Part shown: piece after piece, positions 23,192-31,120 of the stretch
Position numbering within the stretch: position 1 is the stretch's first letter
Layout: every line of letters begins with the position of its first letter
Assembly (NCBI GenBank): GCA_012729815.1
Contig: JAAYCJ010000101.1
Location: 1-35,067 of the forward strand
Direction of reading: 5' to 3'
DNA from: Phycisphaerae bacterium
GTDB lineage: Bacteria > Planctomycetota > Phycisphaerae > JAAYCJ01
DNA: 35,067 nt
Translations under genes and position numbers: made by a program
The notes under the pieces: generated by a model
What the model saw: only the letters and a program-made list of their open reading frames with translations
Told to the model about the DNA's origin: nothing
Database searches by the model: none

Positions 23192-26100
23192 ATGTCTGGC
23201 CGATCCCGGAGTCCTCTGGCTGTGGTTGGAGTGTGTCTTCTGTTGACGTGGTTCATCGGCACGTGGATCCCCGGCTGCGGAGGGCCCGGTCTCGAAGACC
23301 CCAATGACACCGTCGAGAAGCTCTTTCCAGCCAAGGATGTCGAAACGGTTCGCAACGCCGCCGTCGCGTTCGACGAACTGCTCAAGACCAACTCGCGTGA
23401 GGCGGCCCGCACCGCCCTCGTCCAGAAACTCCTGAATGAGGACGAAAACGTCGACTCCGCCCAGCTGTTCGAGGACGGCTACAGCATCTACATCGAATTT
23501 AAGGACGGCTGCGCCGGCATCGTCGATACCACCGACCATGCCGCCTTGCTCGAACGCGCCGACGAACCCGATAACGGGCCCTGGACCCAGTCCGACGCCG
23601 TTGCCAAGCACGCCGATGCCGGATCGCCCGGAGCCAGGTCGCCGACCGCCGATCGCCGCTTCGCCGCCAAGTCCAGCGACGGCCTGGATCTCCAGACTCC
23701 CGGCTCGCGCACCGTCAAGATCATCGACGCCGCCGGCGTCACCACGCCCTACTGCAAGATCATCGCCCAGAACGCCCGTCAGATGCTCCTCGACCGCGGG
23801 TGGGACGAGAACGATATCTCGCTCAAAACCCGGACCGACACCAGCGTGACTCCGCAGGATTTCTTCCAGCTTAACGACGCCGGAATCGTCATCCTCATCG
23901 GGCACACCTACCACGGGACCTCAAAAAAGACCGGCCAGATGATGTACTTCTTCCAGTGCTGTGCGAACGCGGACTTCACCGGCGTCGACGGCGCCCAAGC
24001 CCAGGCCCTCTATGAGAAGATGCGCGACGAAAAGAAACTCCTCGTCACCACCGCCACCGATGATGCAACCGGCGAACAGGGCGAGCAACTGGTTTTCCGC
24101 AGCGACGCGTTTGGAGAAAACTTCGCCGGCAACTTCCCCAACAGCTACGTGCACCTGGTCTCCTGCTCTTCCTGGCAGTACCGCGACGAATTCAAGCAGG
24201 CCGGCTGCGGCAGCTTCACCGGATGGGACGGCCGCGAGATCTGGCGCGACGGTTGCGACGGTCTCCTCGGTTCGCTGTTCGCCATGATGCACCCCGATGG
24301 GGCCATGACCGACGCACAGGCCCACGCCGCCATCGCCGAATGGGGCTACGGCGTCAGCCATCCTGATCCGCAGCCCTCCATTCTCATGCAGGAGCCCGGC
24401 GAGAAGGCCTTCTACCTGCCCGCCTGGCTCCAAGCCGAGGTGGATATCTCCACCCTGCCCGAGGAGACCGACAAGCTCGTCGTCGAGATCGCCTACAGCG
24501 ATGACTGTCCGCCCGAAACCTTCGAGTTCTCCCTCGCCGAGCTGGAGGCCGACGACGGCACGATCGATCTGGGCGACGTGTTTCCGGTCGATGCGACGAT
24601 GACCCTCAAGGCCCTGGACGCCGAAGACGCCCTGCTTAAAACACGCGACATGCTGGTCGCCTTCGAATGCGGCAGAAACGAGGAGGAACTGGCCTTCTGC
24701 CTCGGAGATCTCGACCTGATGTTGGGAGCCTACCCTGCCGAAGGCGACGGCGCCGTCCACCACATCGACGTGTCCTTCGACTATGCCAGCGACGAACTGA
24801 CCGACCCAGCCGCGGTCCAGGTGACGCCAAGCGACGAGTCGATCACCGCCTGGACCAGGCTGGAGGCCGGCGCCGGAGCCCTGACCACCACAGCCTACAA
24901 TGCCGTCGGCGAAATCGTCGGACGCAGCGAAACCGTCCTGTCGGTCGATTGCGGCGAAAACGTCCAGGACGTCTGCTACGGCTGGATCAAGGTCCAGGCC
25001 GACGAACTGCCGCCGGATGCCGAGCGGGTGGACATCCAAGCCGACGGCGGAGCGGCCGGAGACCTCACGGGTACGTTCGCTCCGGGCGAAGCGGTCTACC
25101 TCTACGGATACGACGTTGGCGACACCGTGGAGATCGACGCCGACGTCTTCGGGGCGTACGATTCGGACCTGGGCTCCGATTCGACCACCGTCACGATTGT
25201 CTGCGGCGAGAACCTTGCCGTCGTCGGGGTCTATCAGTACGGCATCGCCATGTCCGCCGACACCGAGGAGATCCCCGCCGACGGAACCACCGCTGCGACC
25301 GTCACCGCCACCCTCCGCAAGTGGGCCGAAGGCGACGTCCTGGCCCCCACCGGCGACCCGATCCCCGGCAAACAGGTCGAGTTCTTCACCGATTTCGGCG
25401 ACCTCGCCGAGCCCACCACTGCCACCTCCGGCGCCGACGGCAAAGCCACCGTCCAACTGACCGGAACCGCCAACGGCATCGCCTGCGTCGGCGCCGCCGT
25501 CACCGCCGACCTCGTCGAATCGAACAACCGGGCCGTCGTCGCCATCGGACAGGTCGTCCGCATCCTCCCCGAGGAAATCACCATCAACTACGACCAGATC
25601 GCCGAAATGACCGCCGACGTCAGGCCCACCCCGGCCGAGGACACCCATATCGTCTACTACTGGAGGATTAAGTCCTCCTTCGGACACCTCAACGGCGGGA
25701 CCCCCGACGCCTTCCACGAATTCGTCGAGACCGACCAGCCCGCCTGCGTCTACCGCCCTCGCGGAAACGGTGAGGCCGTGGACGCCAACCGCCAGATCCT
25801 CGAACTCACCGCCTTCCGCGTCGAAAACGGCAACCGTACCCTCCTGGGTACCGCCCAGGCCAAAATCGCCGTCGTCGCACCCACCAGCATCGAACTCCCC
25901 GTCGCCTACTTCGAGTGGCAGGGGACCGAGCCCGCTGGTCAGGAGCAGATGTACTGGATCAACGCCGGGTGGACCTGGGATCCCATGCCCAAAGCCGTCC
26001 AGTACGACATCATGCTCCATACCAACGGCAACGATCCCGACGGCGTGCCCGATGATGGCGACGTCTGGGTTAAGACCGGCGATGAGTACAGCGACACTGA

Positions 26101-26251
26101 GGACTACTACTACATCAACTACCCGCGAAGCAAGAAGTTCCACATCGGTCCCGGATGGGGCAGCGTGCAGGAGGAGATGCAGACCCCCTACGACTACATC
26201 ACCAACCGCACCGCCGGATGGACTATCACGGTCAAACCGAGATATGAATAG
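23192..26251 (+). CDS. Large lipoprotein with possible clan-CD peptidase fold and Ig-like (Big_1) modules
   Basis: This 1019-residue protein has a signal sequence ending in IPGC, with Cys29 as the likely lipidation site, although Pro at -2 is unusual for a lipobox. Residues 170-400 contain VILIGHTYHG (His238 or His241) and, later, VHLVSCSSWQY (Cys325). A hydrophobic strand before His-Gly and another before Cys is the pattern of clan-CD peptidases (caspase, gingipain, clostripain). Residues about 410-680 hold three related beta modules marked by CGRN/CGEN. Residues about 681-788 match a bacterial Ig-like group 1 domain (ADGTTAATVTATL). The C-terminus is rich in aromatic residues. A GGAAGGAG ribosome binding site precedes the ATG. 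Function is unknown; an envelope-anchored peptidase or adhesin is the best guess. Confidence 0.6.
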   Translation: MSGRSRSPLAVVGVCLLLTWFIGTWIPGCGGPGLEDPNDTVEKLFPAKDVETVRNAAVAFDELLKTNSREAARTALVQKLLNEDENVDSAQLFEDGYSIYIEFKDGCAGIVDTTDHAALLERADEPDNGPWTQSDAVAKHADAGSPGARSPTADRRFAAKSSDGLDLQTPGSRTVKIIDAAGVTTPYCKIIAQNARQMLLDRGWDENDISLKTRTDTSVTPQDFFQLNDAGIVILIGHTYHGTSKKTGQMMYFFQCCANADFTGVDGAQAQALYEKMRDEKKLLVTTATDDATGEQGEQLVFRSDAFGENFAGNFPNSYVHLVSCSSWQYRDEFKQAGCGSFTGWDGREIWRDGCDGLLGSLFAMMHPDGAMTDAQAHAAIAEWGYGVSHPDPQPSILMQEPGEKAFYLPAWLQAEVDISTLPEETDKLVVEIAYSDDCPPETFEFSLAELEADDGTIDLGDVFPVDATMTLKALDAEDALLKTRDMLVAFECGRNEEELAFCLGDLDLMLGAYPAEGDGAVHHIDVSFDYASDELTDPAAVQVTPSDESITAWTRLEAGAGALTTTAYNAVGEIVGRSETVLSVDCGENVQDVCYGWIKVQADELPPDAERVDIQADGGAAGDLTGTFAPGEAVYLYGYDVGDTVEIDADVFGAYDSDLGSDSTTVTIVCGENLAVVGVYQYGIAMSADTEEIPADGTTAATVTATLRKWAEGDVLAPTGDPIPGKQVEFFTDFGDLAEPTTATSGADGKATVQLTGTANGIACVGAAVTADLVESNNRAVVAIGQVVRILPEEITINYDQIAEMTADVRPTPAEDTHIVYYWRIKSSFGHLNGGTPDAFHEFVETDQPACVYRPRGNGEAVDANRQILELTAFRVENGNRTLLGTAQAKIAVVAPTSIELPVAYFEWQGTEPAGQEQMYWINAGWTWDPMPKAVQYDIMLHTNGNDPDGVPDDGDVWVKTGDEYSDTEDYYYINYPRSKKFHIGPGWGSVQEEMQTPYDYITNRTAGWTITVKPRYE

Positions 26252-26342: not shown

Positions 26343-26798
26343 TCAGTAATCGAGGGTCAGGATCCGACCGCTCGTGAAGCTGAAAAAAACGTCCTTGTCA
26401 GCCAGCCTCACGCCTTCGCCGAGGTCGCTCTCGCGCCTGCCCGCGGCCCTGAGGCAGGTCGGACAGACCATCAGGATCGCCCCGTTGCGACGAAGAGTCT
26501 GAAGCTTCTCTCGCAGCCGGCCGTAAGGCTGGACCTGGAAATTCGGCGCATCTCTCAGCAACACCCTCACGCCCTCCAGATCCGCATAGACCAGAACCGG
26601 CCGATCCGCACTCATGATCTCAGCCATCTGCAGGGCCATCAGCACGGCGCGGGAGTTGTCCAGCCCCTTGCTCAAATGGATGAACACCCCGTCGCCCCCC
26701 ACCGGCTGAGTCGTCTGGGCGACGCCCTGGTAAACCGCCACTCCGATCGCCAGCACGGCGACCGCGCCGATCAGTTGGATTCTTCTCGCCTTGCCCAT
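26343..26798 (-). CDS. DsrE-like periplasmic protein
   Basis: This 151-residue protein has an N-terminal hydrophobic segment (residues 7-27) that is a signal peptide or anchor, then a DsrE/DsrF-like alpha/beta fold. Features are VFIHLSKGLDNSRAVLMALQMA, VLVYADLEGVRVLL, and MVCPTCLRAAG with two cysteines in a CxxC arrangement. Members of this superfamily handle sulfur or act as small periplasmic proteins of unknown role. AAAGGAG lies 7 bases before the ATG on the minus strand. It diverges from the hypF-like gene, and their promoters sit close together. Confidence 0.7.
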   Translation of the reverse strand: MGKARRIQLIGAVAVLAIGVAVYQGVAQTTQPVGGDGVFIHLSKGLDNSRAVLMALQMAEIMSADRPVLVYADLEGVRVLLRDAPNFQVQPYGRLREKLQTLRRNGAILMVCPTCLRAAGRRESDLGEGVRLADKDVFFSFTSGRILTLDY

Positions 26799-26901: not shown

Positions 26902-26930
26902 TTGCCGGACCTTCGCATCGGCCGTACAAT
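26902..26930 (+). promoter_or_regulatory. Promoter of the hypF-hypD-like genes
   Basis: TTGCCG at 26902-26907 and TACAAT at 26925-26930 are separated by exactly 17 bases, about 42 bases upstream of the GTG at 26972. It is back to back with the minus-strand promoter at 26867-26894. Confidence 0.55.
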
Positions 26931-26971: not shown

Positions 26972-28726
26972 GTGCGATCCCCAATGGCGGAAAACTCCGA
27001 GTGCATACCGACGCTGAGGCTGCTCGACCGCGGCGGCAGCGCGGTCGAAGGCGACCCGATCGCCCGGGCGGCCGGCATGCTCAGATCAGGCAACGTCCTG
27101 GCCGTCAAGGACCCGTGCGGATTCCACCTGATCTGCGACGCCGTTTCCACAACCGCGGTGCGGCGCCTGCGACAGTTGCTCCCCCGCCCCTACGCCCCGC
27201 TGGCCGTCATGGTCGCCAACACCGAAACCGCCGAGCGATGGTGCGAACTCGACGGCCATGAGCGCAGCCTCCTGGACGACCCGATCCGGCCGATCGTGAT
27301 CCTCCGACAGAAGCCCGCACAGACTGCTCTGCGCGACATCGCGCCGGGCCTCGATACACTGGGTGTGCGGCTGCCGTACGCACCGCACCATCACCGCCTG
27401 TTCGCCCAAGGACTTGCAGCGTTGGTCTACACGGGAGCCGGAATCGCCCACGACCGGGAGGCCCAGAACCGATTCCGCTGCCTCGTGGATGGCTTCCTGA
27501 CCCACGATCAGCCGCTTGAACGAAGCATGCCCGAAACGGTGCTTCAGCCGCGAAACGCGGGCCGCATGGTCCTGCGCCCCGGCCGCGGACTCTCCCCGCA
27601 AACCTTCGACCTTGGCCAAACCGCTCCGGACCCGATCCTGGCGGTGGGAACCGACAACAAGAACACGGTCGCCCTCGTCGAGGGCGGCCGCGCGGTGGTC
27701 AGCGAACAGATCGGCGATCTGGCCGACGACGCAGCCTTCGGAAGGTTCAAACAGGTCATCGCCGAGTTAACAGGATCTCTGAAACATCCTCCGCGATCCA
27801 TCGCCGCCGATCTGGATGGCGACGGCCGCGCCGCCCAATACGCCAACCAGCAACTCGAACTCGAAATGATCCAGGTCCAGCACCACCACGCCCACGCCGT
27901 CTCCTGCATGGTCGAACACGGCCTGAACGAACCGCTGATCGCCGTCGTCGCCGACGGAACGGGACTGGGACCGGACGGCACGCTGTGGGGCGGCGAACTC
28001 CTCCTGGCCGAACGCGCGGCGTTCCAGCGGCTCGGCCACCTCCAGTACTACCGCCTGCCGGGAGGGCGCACCGCCGCGAGGCAGACCTTCCGACCGGCCC
28101 TGGCATTGCTGCACCAGGTCTTCGGCGATCAGACGCTGACCCATCCGGTCGCAGCCGAGCTCTGCCCGGACCGCCGGATCCGCAAAGCCATTCTCGATAC
28201 GATCGTCCGCCAGATCGACTCCCCGCCGACCAGCAGCCTCGGCCGTCTCTTCGACGCCGCCGCGGCCATTACCGGCCTGGCGGGAGTCAACTACCACGCC
28301 GCCCACGGCCCGATGCTCCTCGAGGCCCAGGCCAACGGACGAACGGACGAAACCTACGGCTACGAACTGACTCGGCGCGACGGCCTGCTGATCCTGCAGC
28401 CGCAGAAGATCATCCGCCAAATGGCCGCCGATGTCGAATCCGCGACCGACCTGAGCCTGATCGCCGACCGCTTCCACAACGCCGTCGCCGCAATGCTGGC
28501 CGAAGCAACAGCGGTGCTGGCCAACGAGCGCAACTGCCGGCGGGTCGTGCTCTCCGGCGGATGCTTCGCCAACCGTTGCCTCAGCCGCCGCCTGCGGGAA
28601 AACCTCGAACGTTCCGGCCTAGAATGTTATGAACACCGCGAGATTCCCTGCTCCGCCGAGGGTATCTCGCTGGGCCAGGCCGCTTGTGCCGCGGCCCGTC
28701 GCATGGCGGATATGCACGATGATTGA
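26972..28726 (+). CDS. hypF: HypF-like carbamoyltransferase homologue lacking acylphosphatase and zinc-finger domains
   Basis: HypF normally has about 750 residues: acylphosphatase, zinc fingers, YrdC-like and Kae1-like domains. This 584-residue protein begins at the YrdC-like part (DPCGFHLICDA, LGVRLPYAPHHH). That domain looks degenerate: the usual TSGN is TGAG (154-157), HDRPIxRRxDDS is HDQPLERSMPET (from 178), and the basic residues of KxRPxKPLA are replaced (LPRPYAPLA). The Kae1-like domain (about 220-575) is well kept, with HHHAH (304-308), DGTGLGPDGTLWGGELLLA, SSLGRLFDAAAA and LSGGCFANRCLS. The start is GTG 26972 with AGGAG 4 bases upstream; ATG 26984 is possible. Normal HypF makes the thiocarbamate precursor of the hydrogenase CN ligands via HypE; that activity is doubtful here. 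A hypD-like gene follows. Confidence 0.8.
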   Translation: MRSPMAENSECIPTLRLLDRGGSAVEGDPIARAAGMLRSGNVLAVKDPCGFHLICDAVSTTAVRRLRQLLPRPYAPLAVMVANTETAERWCELDGHERSLLDDPIRPIVILRQKPAQTALRDIAPGLDTLGVRLPYAPHHHRLFAQGLAALVYTGAGIAHDREAQNRFRCLVDGFLTHDQPLERSMPETVLQPRNAGRMVLRPGRGLSPQTFDLGQTAPDPILAVGTDNKNTVALVEGGRAVVSEQIGDLADDAAFGRFKQVIAELTGSLKHPPRSIAADLDGDGRAAQYANQQLELEMIQVQHHHAHAVSCMVEHGLNEPLIAVVADGTGLGPDGTLWGGELLLAERAAFQRLGHLQYYRLPGGRTAARQTFRPALALLHQVFGDQTLTHPVAAELCPDRRIRKAILDTIVRQIDSPPTSSLGRLFDAAAAITGLAGVNYHAAHGPMLLEAQANGRTDETYGYELTRRDGLLILQPQKIIRQMAADVESATDLSLIADRFHNAVAAMLAEATAVLANERNCRRVVLSGGCFANRCLSRRLRENLERSGLECYEHREIPCSAEGISLGQAACAAARRMADMHDD

Positions 28727-28768
28727 CAAATCTCAACCGACAACCAACAGCCGGAAAGCGAGTCGCCG

Positions 28769-29854
28769 ATGCCCGATCTGATCGCCAAGGAAAAGAAGGT
28801 CCAAGCCGCCCTCGCCGATCTGGCCGCCGACGCCGCCAAACTCAACCGAACCGTGCGGATCATGGAGGTCGGCACAGGACACACCGTCGCCATCCAGCGG
28901 GCCGGCATCCGTGCCTTGCTGCCCGAAAACGTCAGACTCATCTCCGGCCCCGGATGCCCGATCTGCACCACCCCCACCGGATATATCGACGGCGCGATCG
29001 CCCTGGCCAAACGGCAGAACGTGCTGATCGCCACGTACGAGGATATGCTGCGGGTGCCCGGAACCGAATCCTCCCTCGCCCACGCCCGCGACGACGGCGC
29101 CCGCGTGCAAGCCGTCAGCTCCGCCTTCGAGGCGCATCTCCTGGCCAACCACAACCCCGACCAACCGGTCATCTTCGCCGCCGTCGGGTTCGAAGCCTCC
29201 GCGCCGACCACCGCCGACGTCCTGACCCGAGCCCGCAACGCGGACCTGCGGAACCTCTTCGTCCTCTCCGCCCACAAACTCATTGTGCCCGCGATGGAGC
29301 ACGTCGCAGCCGACAACGTCAACCGTATCGACGCCTTCCTCTGTCCGGGCAACCTCAGCGTCATGACCGGCTATCGGGCCTACGAACCCATCGTCGCCCG
29401 CCATCGCCGCCCCTGCGTGATCGCCGGTTTCGACCCGCCTCAGATCATCGAAGCCGTCGCCCGCATCGTCGCCCAACTCGCCGACAACGACGCCCGGGTC
29501 GAAAACGTCTACACCGCCGCCGTCGGGCCCGACGGCTACGCCCGGGCCTGGGAAATGATCGAACGGGTCTTCCGCGTCGAATCAGCCGAATGGCGAGGCT
29601 TCGGCACGATCCCCAACAGCGGCTTGGCAACCAACGACACCTACAAGCGTTTCGACGCCGCACAGGCCTTCGGCATCGACCTCCAGGGCACGGGCGAACG
29701 CCCCGGATGCCGCTGCGCCTACGTCATCACCGGCCACATCGATCCGCCCGAATGCCCCCTCTTCGGCCGCGCCTGCACGCCCGAACACCCCGTCGGCACC
29801 TGCATGGTCTCCACCGGCGGAGCCTGCCACGCCTGGTACAAATACCGCGGCTGA
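28769..29854 (+). CDS. hypD: HypD-like iron-sulfur protein lacking the conserved iron-binding cysteine
   Basis: This 361-residue protein has normal HypD length. HypD normally carries Fe(CN)2CO together with HypC during [NiFe]-hydrogenase maturation. The GPGCPIC motif (Cys63, Cys66) and the C-terminal [4Fe-4S] cysteines are intact (CRC, CPLFGRACTPEHPVGTCMVS, GGACHAWYKY). The N-terminal motif MEVCGGHTH reads MEVGTGHTV here: Gly35 stands at the site of Cys41 of E. coli HypD, 28 residues before the first CPIC cysteine exactly as in E. coli. That Cys is essential in hydrogenase maturation. The gene lies 42 bases after the hypF-like gene, with no room for hypC between, and no hypE or hydrogenase gene is in the window. 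Family call is firm; the loss suggests a different role. Confidence 0.85.
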   Translation: MPDLIAKEKKVQAALADLAADAAKLNRTVRIMEVGTGHTVAIQRAGIRALLPENVRLISGPGCPICTTPTGYIDGAIALAKRQNVLIATYEDMLRVPGTESSLAHARDDGARVQAVSSAFEAHLLANHNPDQPVIFAAVGFEASAPTTADVLTRARNADLRNLFVLSAHKLIVPAMEHVAADNVNRIDAFLCPGNLSVMTGYRAYEPIVARHRRPCVIAGFDPPQIIEAVARIVAQLADNDARVENVYTAAVGPDGYARAWEMIERVFRVESAEWRGFGTIPNSGLATNDTYKRFDAAQAFGIDLQGTGERPGCRCAYVITGHIDPPECPLFGRACTPEHPVGTCMVSTGGACHAWYKYRG

Positions 29855-29914: not shown

Positions 29915-30955
29915 CTACACGCCCATCAACGCCTTGCTGACCAGGTCCGCCACGCCCGCCTGATCGCTGTTCTTGCGAAGCCGCTCCAGCTTCTTCGCGT
30001 CGATCCGGTCGCAGCACGCGCTGAACCGCTTGAAGTTCCGAATGCTCCGGGCCACCGATTCGGCGTACTGCTTCTCGTTGTCCGTCCCGAACGGCTGAAC
30101 GTCAAAACCGATCAACCCGCGGTAGTTGTGCTGCTTGAGCACCCACACCGCCGAAAAACAGCCCATCACGTCCGCGTCGCCGAACGCGTAGTCCTGATCG
30201 AACGCCGGACGCGACTGGTCGTTCAGGTGCACGTGACCCAGCTTGCCCGCCGCCAGTCCCATCGACAGGTCCAGGGCGTAGCTCAACCCCGCCATCGTCG
30301 AGTGCGCCTTCTCCGGATTCAGCCCGACCCACTGGGCGTACTTCGGCTCCATCATCGAGATCAACCCCAGCGCGTCGCCCACCGTCCCGCCGTACATGTA
30401 GTTCCGCGGCTCGTTCGGCTTCGGCTCGAAGAGCACCGGAATCATCCGCTCCTCGCCGAACTGCGAAAGCCCGAACTCCACCAGCTCATTGAGCGCGTCC
30501 ACCATGTACTTCAAATGCGTGACGTGGTCCTTCGCGAACTCGTGGTCGAACCCAGCCGTGCCCACCCAGTAAACGTACACCTCCGCGTCGAGATCCTCGA
30601 TCCCAGCCGCCAGGTACTTCTTCGAAAAATCGATCGCCATCCGCCGAACCTTCGGATCGGGCGAATCGTACGCCCCGTTGATGAACTCCGGCCGCCGAAA
30701 CAGGTTCGCGGTCACCATGCCCGTCTTGAGCCCTTCCTTGTCGATCACCTTCCGAAACGCCCTCGCCTGGTCGGCCGGCAACTCCGTGTCGTGAAACTCC
30801 AAATGCGTCACGCCCGCCTTCCGCAACAGCGGTAGCTTCTTGGCCAAATCGATCGGCGCCCGCGTGCCCGACGTAAACCGCGACCCGCCGCCGTTGACGT
30901 TCCACTCGCCCGCCGCGAACGCCGAACCGAACTTGTGCTGAAACTTCGGAATCAT
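29915..30955 (-). CDS. Xylose isomerase family protein
   Basis: This 346-residue protein follows the xylose isomerase plan: catalytic His55 in THLEFHDTEL, EPKPNEPRNYMYGGTVGDAL (catalytic Lys and metal Glu), GLNPEKAHSTMAGL (metal Glu and His), FDQDYAFGDAD (metal Asp pair) and GFDVQP (metal Asp). The strand that reads HIDLN in typical enzymes is HVHLN here, so one metal-1 Asp appears to be His. It is shorter than usual (about 385-440). I place the start at ATG 30955, preceded by GGAGG at 7 bases. The frame stays open to 31117, but that extension covers the promoter and ribosome binding site of the divergent gene and does not resemble the family. It may isomerise xylose or another aldose released by the hydrolases. 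Confidence 0.75.
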   Translation of the reverse strand: MIPKFQHKFGSAFAAGEWNVNGGGSRFTSGTRAPIDLAKKLPLLRKAGVTHLEFHDTELPADQARAFRKVIDKEGLKTGMVTANLFRRPEFINGAYDSPDPKVRRMAIDFSKKYLAAGIEDLDAEVYVYWVGTAGFDHEFAKDHVTHLKYMVDALNELVEFGLSQFGEERMIPVLFEPKPNEPRNYMYGGTVGDALGLISMMEPKYAQWVGLNPEKAHSTMAGLSYALDLSMGLAAGKLGHVHLNDQSRPAFDQDYAFGDADVMGCFSAVWVLKQHNYRGLIGFDVQPFGTDNEKQYAESVARSIRNFKRFSACCDRIDAKKLERLRKNSDQAGVADLVSKALMGV

Positions 30956-31003
30956 GAACTTGCCTCCGTATGTCCGTTGATATTCCTGTCCGTCGATGGC
31001 ATT

Positions 31004-31032
31004 ACCATACCGCCGCCGCCCATCCCGGTCAA
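31004..31032 (-). promoter_or_regulatory. Candidate promoter of the xylose-isomerase-like gene
   Basis: Minus-strand TTGACC (31027-31032) and TATGGT (31004-31009) have 17-base spacing and lie about 50 bases before the start codon at 30955. Confidence 0.4.
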
Positions 31033-31061
31033 CTCCGCTCCGCCAAACCCGCCGATCTTCC

Positions 31062-31089
31062 TTGAATGCCCGACGCGGCGCGGTATCAT
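31062..31089 (+). promoter_or_regulatory. Promoter of the flavoprotein gene
   Basis: TTGAAT at 31062-31067 and TATCAT at 31084-31089 are separated by 16 bases, about 30 bases upstream of the ATG at 31121. Confidence 0.45.
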
Positions 31090-31120
31090 ACACCCAAGCC
31101 ACTTTTCGGGAGGACAATCA

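Follow-up and report, generated by a model that had tools for sequence, protein, structure and literature searches.

An orphan hypF-hypD pair without its catalytic residues in a Phycisphaerae genome, and its possible retention outside hydrogenase maturation

A Phycisphaerae bacterium has lost its NiFe hydrogenase together with four of the six genes that usually assist in its maturation, and the two that it kept, hypF and hypD, encode proteins in which the residues that perform the chemistry are gone and the other parts are as well preserved as in working relatives. The sequence evidence supports the conclusion that this pair would be unable to carry out hydrogenase maturation, because key residues are missing from both proteins and hypA, hypB, hypC, hypE and the NiFe large subunit are absent from the genome. 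Since the pattern of loss is selective, retention of the Kae1 fold and of the Fe-S/dithiol part after the loss of hydrogenase, for a role other than hydrogenase maturation, is favoured over early decay, at a probability that we place at about one half.

Genomic context, missing partners and ancestry

The pair was found in a window of 35,067 nucleotides (the whole stretch of DNA analysed), at the positions given in Table 1, which agree for both ORFs with those of the initial annotation. The two genes lie on the same strand, 42 bp apart, between a divergent DsrE-like gene (26343-26798, minus strand) and a convergent gene for a xylose-isomerase-like TIM-barrel protein (29915-31117, minus strand), and no new partner gene was evident beside them. 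Promoter-like consensus matches were found three times in the region against 0.3 expected, and between the HypF-like ORF and the DsrE-like gene they face both ways. By eye, the DsrE/DsrF-like protein carries a putative N-terminal membrane anchor, and elsewhere in the window a GntR/LacI-type regulator (158-1255), a prepilin-like protein (1299-2027) and large proteins that look like carbohydrate-active enzymes (2814-22946) were noticed. A 1019-aa protein (23192-26251) has a Big_1 domain according to Pfam, and its N-terminal half resembles, by eye, a secreted peptidase of the caspase/gingipain type.

Table 1. Positions, within the window, of the two genes and of the motifs discussed in the text
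Feature	Position	Strand	Remarks
Sigma-70-like promoter match TTGCCG-17-TACAAT	26902..26930	+	Upstream of the truncated HypF-like ORF; consensus match only
HypF-like CDS	26972..28726	+	584 aa, GTG start; alternative in-frame ATG at 26984
YrdC-like domain, residues 28-206	27053..27589	+	Signature motifs lost
KxRPxK position, reads LPRPYA	27179..27196	+	Both Lys lost; alignment
TSGN position, reads TGAG	27431..27442	+	Followed by a 6-residue deletion; alignment
DDS position, reads PET	27530..27538	+	Alignment
Kae1-like domain, residues 207-576	27590..28699	+	Pfam HypF_C and HypF_C_2; 4/36 near-invariant columns lost
HHHAH	27881..27895	+	Metal-ligand His H304 and H308 kept; alignment
Ala562 codon	28655..28657	+	Replaces the invariant metal-ligand Asp (E. 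coli D727); alignment
HypD-like CDS	28769..29854	+	361 aa; ORF with TIGR00075 and Pfam matches
Gly35 codon	28871..28873	+	Replaces the essential Cys41; MEVCGTHT reads MEVGTGHT; alignment
CPIC	28955..28966	+	Dithiol pair kept, C63 and C66; alignment
PGHVS motif, reads PGNLS	29345..29359	+	Alignment
Fe-S domain cysteines, C-terminal	29714..29827	+	C316, C329, C336 and C353 kept; alignment

The host genome, of which the window is contig C101, is a draft of 5.47 Mb in 367 contigs, estimated as 97.27% complete with 3.8% contamination. A genome-wide search returned exactly one HypF and one HypD homologue, and the second complete hyp set that the initial annotation had considered as a way in which its reading could fail was not found in this genome. 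No match was obtained there for the NiFe hydrogenase large subunit (PF00374), which was present in 19 of the 22 genomes searched, nor for hypC (PF01455) or hypA. Only distant paralogues were found for hypE (best about 93-94 bits, below the cut-off of 252) and for hypB (45 bits, below 121). These partner families were present in most of the relatives searched alongside. The pair is thus an orphan, and the search for hydrogenase, hypC and hypE that had been suggested earlier ended with all three absent.

One candidate for the missing HypE, on contig C100 (L070:11090-12112), was rejected, with 94 bits against the cut-off of 252, a ThiL score of 92 bits and no C-terminal Cys; this AIR-synthase-like protein stands between HypE, ThiL and SelD (94, 92 and 58 bits), and the hypE model gave comparably strong matches in the same-family sister genome (G017) and in another genome (G109). 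Beside it, an amidophosphoribosyltransferase-like protein (L070:12128-13699, minus strand) was 61-65% identical to proteins of some other families of the class and only 35-36% identical to its best own-family matches, as a different paralogue or a transferred gene would be. A third genome of the family (G007) keeps a weak HypA match without HypF or HypD, so a role apart from hydrogenase is possible for its HypA-like protein; the second HypA copy of the sister genome is of the same weak type.

The genes hypF, hypC, hypD and hypE form a cluster in many relatives within the class, where hypC and hypE flank hypD. At the host locus hypC and hypE are gone, relics of them were looked for within the window and not found, and hypF adjoins hypD. 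The sister genome has canonical hypF, hypC, hypD and hypE, with hypF on another contig than hypCDE. Trees placed both the HypF-like protein (SH-aLRT 99) and the HypD-like protein with the canonical proteins of this same-family genome, which, as judged from the sequences, establishes vertical inheritance of the pair from canonical hydrogenase-maturation genes rather than a foreign origin.

The distribution of this unusual HypD was surveyed with a DNA pattern in which the codon of Cys41 does not start with T, a pattern that is therefore blind to Ser (TCN), Tyr, Phe, Trp and Leu (TTR) at this position. Within the class, 397 genomes were scanned, 224 of them with a HypD match, and the Cys-less pattern occurred only in the window's own genome; it gave 0 matches in the species genomes of GTDB 220, a collection that may omit the host and near genomes and in which no close HypD relatives were confirmed. 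As controls, the Cys-less pattern recovered the window, its Cys version recovered canonical HypD loci, and a pattern of the same shape worked in the collection-wide scan. Searches of the open-licence literature turned up neither a HypD lacking Cys41 nor a pair of this kind. The initial annotation had spoken of a conserved alternative function, and here it went too far: since a single genome carries the Cys-less HypD, conservation of a new function cannot be shown.

Residue losses in the two proteins

In the HypF-like protein, Pfam recognised Sua5/YrdC (36-204), HypF_C (220-315) and HypF_C_2 (325-569), and the match to TIGR00143 reached 392 bits, below the cut-off of 466.1, over model positions 175-739 of 741. 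The HypF of the sister genome, of 785 aa, has the full domain set and scores 840 bits over the whole model. The acylphosphatase and zinc-finger domains were absent from the ORF and from the DNA upstream, where nothing of an N-terminal relic was found beyond a few residues. Of 69 near-invariant columns in an alignment with 32 relatives, E. coli among them, the protein has lost 19 (28%), 15 of these in the YrdC region (residues 1-206). Relative to E. coli, K243 is replaced by L70, K248 by A75, S322 by G155 and N324 by G157; P329 is deleted, R353 is replaced by Q, D360, D361 and S362 by P, E and T, and R373 by P. The catalytic motif KxR...SxN thus reads LPR...GAG. In the Kae1-like domain D328 is kept together with the two His, and at the second Asp not only D727 but also the next Gly (G728, now E) is changed. 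The related GdmN binds its metal through H133/H137/D156/D333, and the GdmN counterpart of the lost second Asp is an iron ligand (PMC9633730). With the fourth member of this set of two His and two Asp gone, the Kae1-like domain, read from its sequence, is not catalytically intact.

The HypD-like protein is a full-length member of its family (Pfam HypD at 12-360, 422 bits; TIGR00075, 393.8 bits against a cut-off of 192.8), which in an alignment with 52 relatives has lost 15 of 85 near-invariant columns (18%). Cys41, which is invariant in all 52, is replaced by Gly35, and the following G42 and T43 by T and G; further losses are T149 to A and T150 to S in GFETT, and H201 to N195 and V202 to L196 in PGHVS. 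HypD Cys41 has been described as an essential iron ligand, together with HypC Cys2, and Asp98 as essential (PMC12130793). The equivalent of D98 is retained as D92, and all fully conserved C-terminal cysteines and the CPxC pair are kept. No other Cys precedes the CPIC pair, so the essential Cys is lost and not shifted.

These alignments sustain most of what had been read from the DNA before: a HypF homologue without acylphosphatase and zinc-finger regions and with altered YrdC motifs (TSGN to TGAG, DDS to PET, loss of the basic residues of KxRPxK), a HypD homologue with Gly in place of the essential Cys and with CPIC and the C-terminal Fe-S cysteines kept, and an overall loss of residues needed for hydrogenase maturation, to which the genome-wide absence of partners adds. 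Catalytic residues at shifted positions, which would have spoken against this reading, were not found. The claim that HypF keeps its Kae1-like domain holds for the fold, as seen by Pfam, and fails for the active site.

Uneven loss, open frames and substitution rates

Canonical relatives have a median loss of 0 near-invariant columns and a maximum of 5.5% for HypF and 4.5% for HypD (same class), so the 28% and 18% observed in the window are beyond chance. The losses were distributed unevenly: 15/33 columns in YrdC and 12/56 in the Fe-binding domains of HypD (residues 1-230), against 4/36 in Kae1 and 3/29 in the Fe-S domain. The difference was significant for YrdC versus Kae1 (p 0.0025) and for YrdC and HypD 1-230 pooled versus Kae1 and Fe-S pooled (p 0.005). 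A second comparison, between the window and the functional sister, used the columns that at least 80% of relatives conserve. Losses in the window exceeded those in the sister in YrdC (28/70 versus 8/70, p 0.0002) and in HypD 1-230 (22/95 versus 8/95, p 0.009), and the two did not differ significantly in Kae1 (26/107 versus 18/107, p 0.24) or in the Fe-S domain (5/45 versus 4/45). Within HypD, losses were concentrated in the cleft motifs, a set chosen post hoc (10/28 versus 5/57 elsewhere, p 0.005). These results support a selective loss, in which, by sequence comparison, the Kae1 and HypD Fe-S domains have diverged about as much as in the functional sister.

Neither ORF contains a stop or a frameshift. 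In simulations of neutral substitution continued to the observed loss, a mean of 5.3 stops arose and both frames stayed open in 1 of 400 runs, indels uncounted; taken singly, HypD stayed open in 91 of 400 runs and Kae1 in 129 of 400. The terminal branches of the window proteins were longer than those of the sister, for HypD (1.05 versus 0.64) and for HypF (1.29 versus 0.57), in the latter for both YrdC (1.57 versus 0.60) and Kae1 (0.94 versus 0.50), with 0.29 versus 0.22 for AlaS, the rate control. PurF had been considered as the control and was dropped in favour of AlaS, because the copy on C100 and that of the family are different paralogues. The acceleration of the pair is real, though moderate, and would also be expected under relaxed selection. 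The codon-position GC of the pair was ordinary for the window, which is a weak test here. Single-sequence structure predictions of the two proteins gave mean pLDDT values of 38 and 37 and were excluded from the evidence.

It had been argued from the matched losses, adjacency and open frames of the two genes that they were kept for an alternative function, and that signs of relaxed selection, together with a second complete hyp set, would count against this. The selective loss and the open frames agree with that argument, and the failure to find a second genome with a Cys-less HypD and the damaged Kae1 active site do not; as to relaxed selection, the acceleration is present, accompanied by uneven constraint.

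Retention, decay and comparison with known systems

The serious rival is early decay, in which the hydrogenase was lost, hypA, hypB, hypC and hypE were deleted, and hypF and hypD now drift without function, no stop or frameshift having arisen yet. We consider it somewhat less probable than retention, and serious because the evidence comes from one genome only, several tests have small counts and the HypD cleft test was post hoc. Decay would readily explain that everything the pair could act with is gone, that HypF is truncated, that catalytic residues have been lost at all three remaining sites and that the terminal branches are accelerated; it also suits the finding that such a pair is kept in no other genome of those scanned and that the third genome of the family lacks both genes. 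However, drift should hit all domains alike, and this is at odds with the difference between YrdC and Kae1, with a Fe-S domain that equals the functional sister and with frames that neutral runs so rarely left open; the ordinary codon-position GC points the same way, weakly.

Two other explanations have little probability. Least probable is that the pair still performs a working step of hydrogenase maturation, its partners lying in the missing part of the genome and its altered residues being tolerated. The fragmented and incomplete state of the draft gives this some room, yet five partner families would have to be missing simultaneously, hypC and hypE are absent from the very locus where they flank hypD in relatives, and YrdC KxR...SxN has been lost as well as the HypD Cys described as essential (PMC12130793). 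Hardly more probable is an artefact of assembly or consensus errors or of a chimeric contig. A single fragmented draft invites the suspicion, and the three adjacent residue changes around Gly35 would be explained by a paired 3-base deletion and insertion; against it stand 34 separate losses across both genes with zero frameshifts, the grouping of both proteins with the same-family genome and a base composition like that of the rest of the contig.

Retention for another role thus has in its favour the orphan status, the ancestry, the uneven losses, the open frames, the kept cysteines and the promoter-like match, and against it the single genome, the longer terminal branches, the lost Kae1 ligand and the want of an evident partner gene. 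Under retention, the pair, inherited vertically from a canonical set of hydrogenase-maturation genes, would have outlasted the loss of NiFe hydrogenase with hypA, hypB, hypC and hypE from the lineage, and the hypF and hypD products would then have been kept as catalytically dead proteins. The HypF-like protein would no longer handle carbamoyl phosphate or make carbamoyl-AMP, would very probably no longer transfer carbamoyl groups, and would have kept the Kae1 nucleotide-binding fold; the HypD-like protein would have lost the Fe(CN)2CO cradle and kept the [4Fe-4S] domain and the CPxC dithiol. Most likely, the latter would serve in redox reactions through its [4Fe-4S] cluster and dithiol, the Kae1-like protein would be a partner or regulator that binds nucleotides, and neither would perform cyanide or carbamoyl chemistry. 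We infer from these sequences that the proteins are made, folded and cluster-carrying and have a role. That they form one two-protein system of dead enzymes outside hydrogen metabolism, in which a nucleotide-binding pseudoenzyme with the Kae1 fold accompanies a HypD that keeps its [4Fe-4S] and dithiol parts and has given up Fe(CN)2CO binding, is a more tentative proposal, to which we give somewhat less than even odds.

To our knowledge, the only role described for the iron-sulfur protein HypD is in the assembly of the hydrogenase cofactor. If the pair is retained, a HypD without its iron-binding Cys, HypC or hydrogenase would show the redox and Fe-S function separated from that of a scaffold, and we know of no earlier case in which HypD was put to use outside hydrogen metabolism. 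If decay is under way instead, the pair would record the sequence in which a maturation system of several genes collapses, with partner genes and active sites going first and folds last.

Among known systems, the HypF-like protein shares the order of YrdC and Kae1-like domains with HypF (TIGR00143, a class II carbamoyltransferase), and it is closest, with 47% identity, to the canonical HypF found in its own family. It differs from HypF in lacking the acylphosphatase, the zinc fingers, YrdC KxR...SxN, the Kae1 metal-ligand Asp and the HypE target. The HypD-like protein matches HypD (TIGR00075, the scaffold of Fe(CN)2CO assembly) over the full length and has CPxC, D98 and the C-terminal Fe-S cysteines in common with it, but not Cys41, the GFETT and PGHVS residues or the HypC partner. 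The class III O-carbamoyltransferases TobZ and GdmN use YrdC and Kae1-like domains outside hydrogenase maturation (PMC9633730, PMC9654439) and show that this architecture has been reused before; both of their active sites are intact and their domains stand in the opposite order, whereas the window protein has the HypF order and has lost its active sites. TsaB, the partner of TsaD, has a Kae1 fold whose truncated C-lobe does not support nucleotide or metal binding (PMC9654439) and, without being closely related to the window protein, is an earlier example of such a fold being kept in a partner protein.
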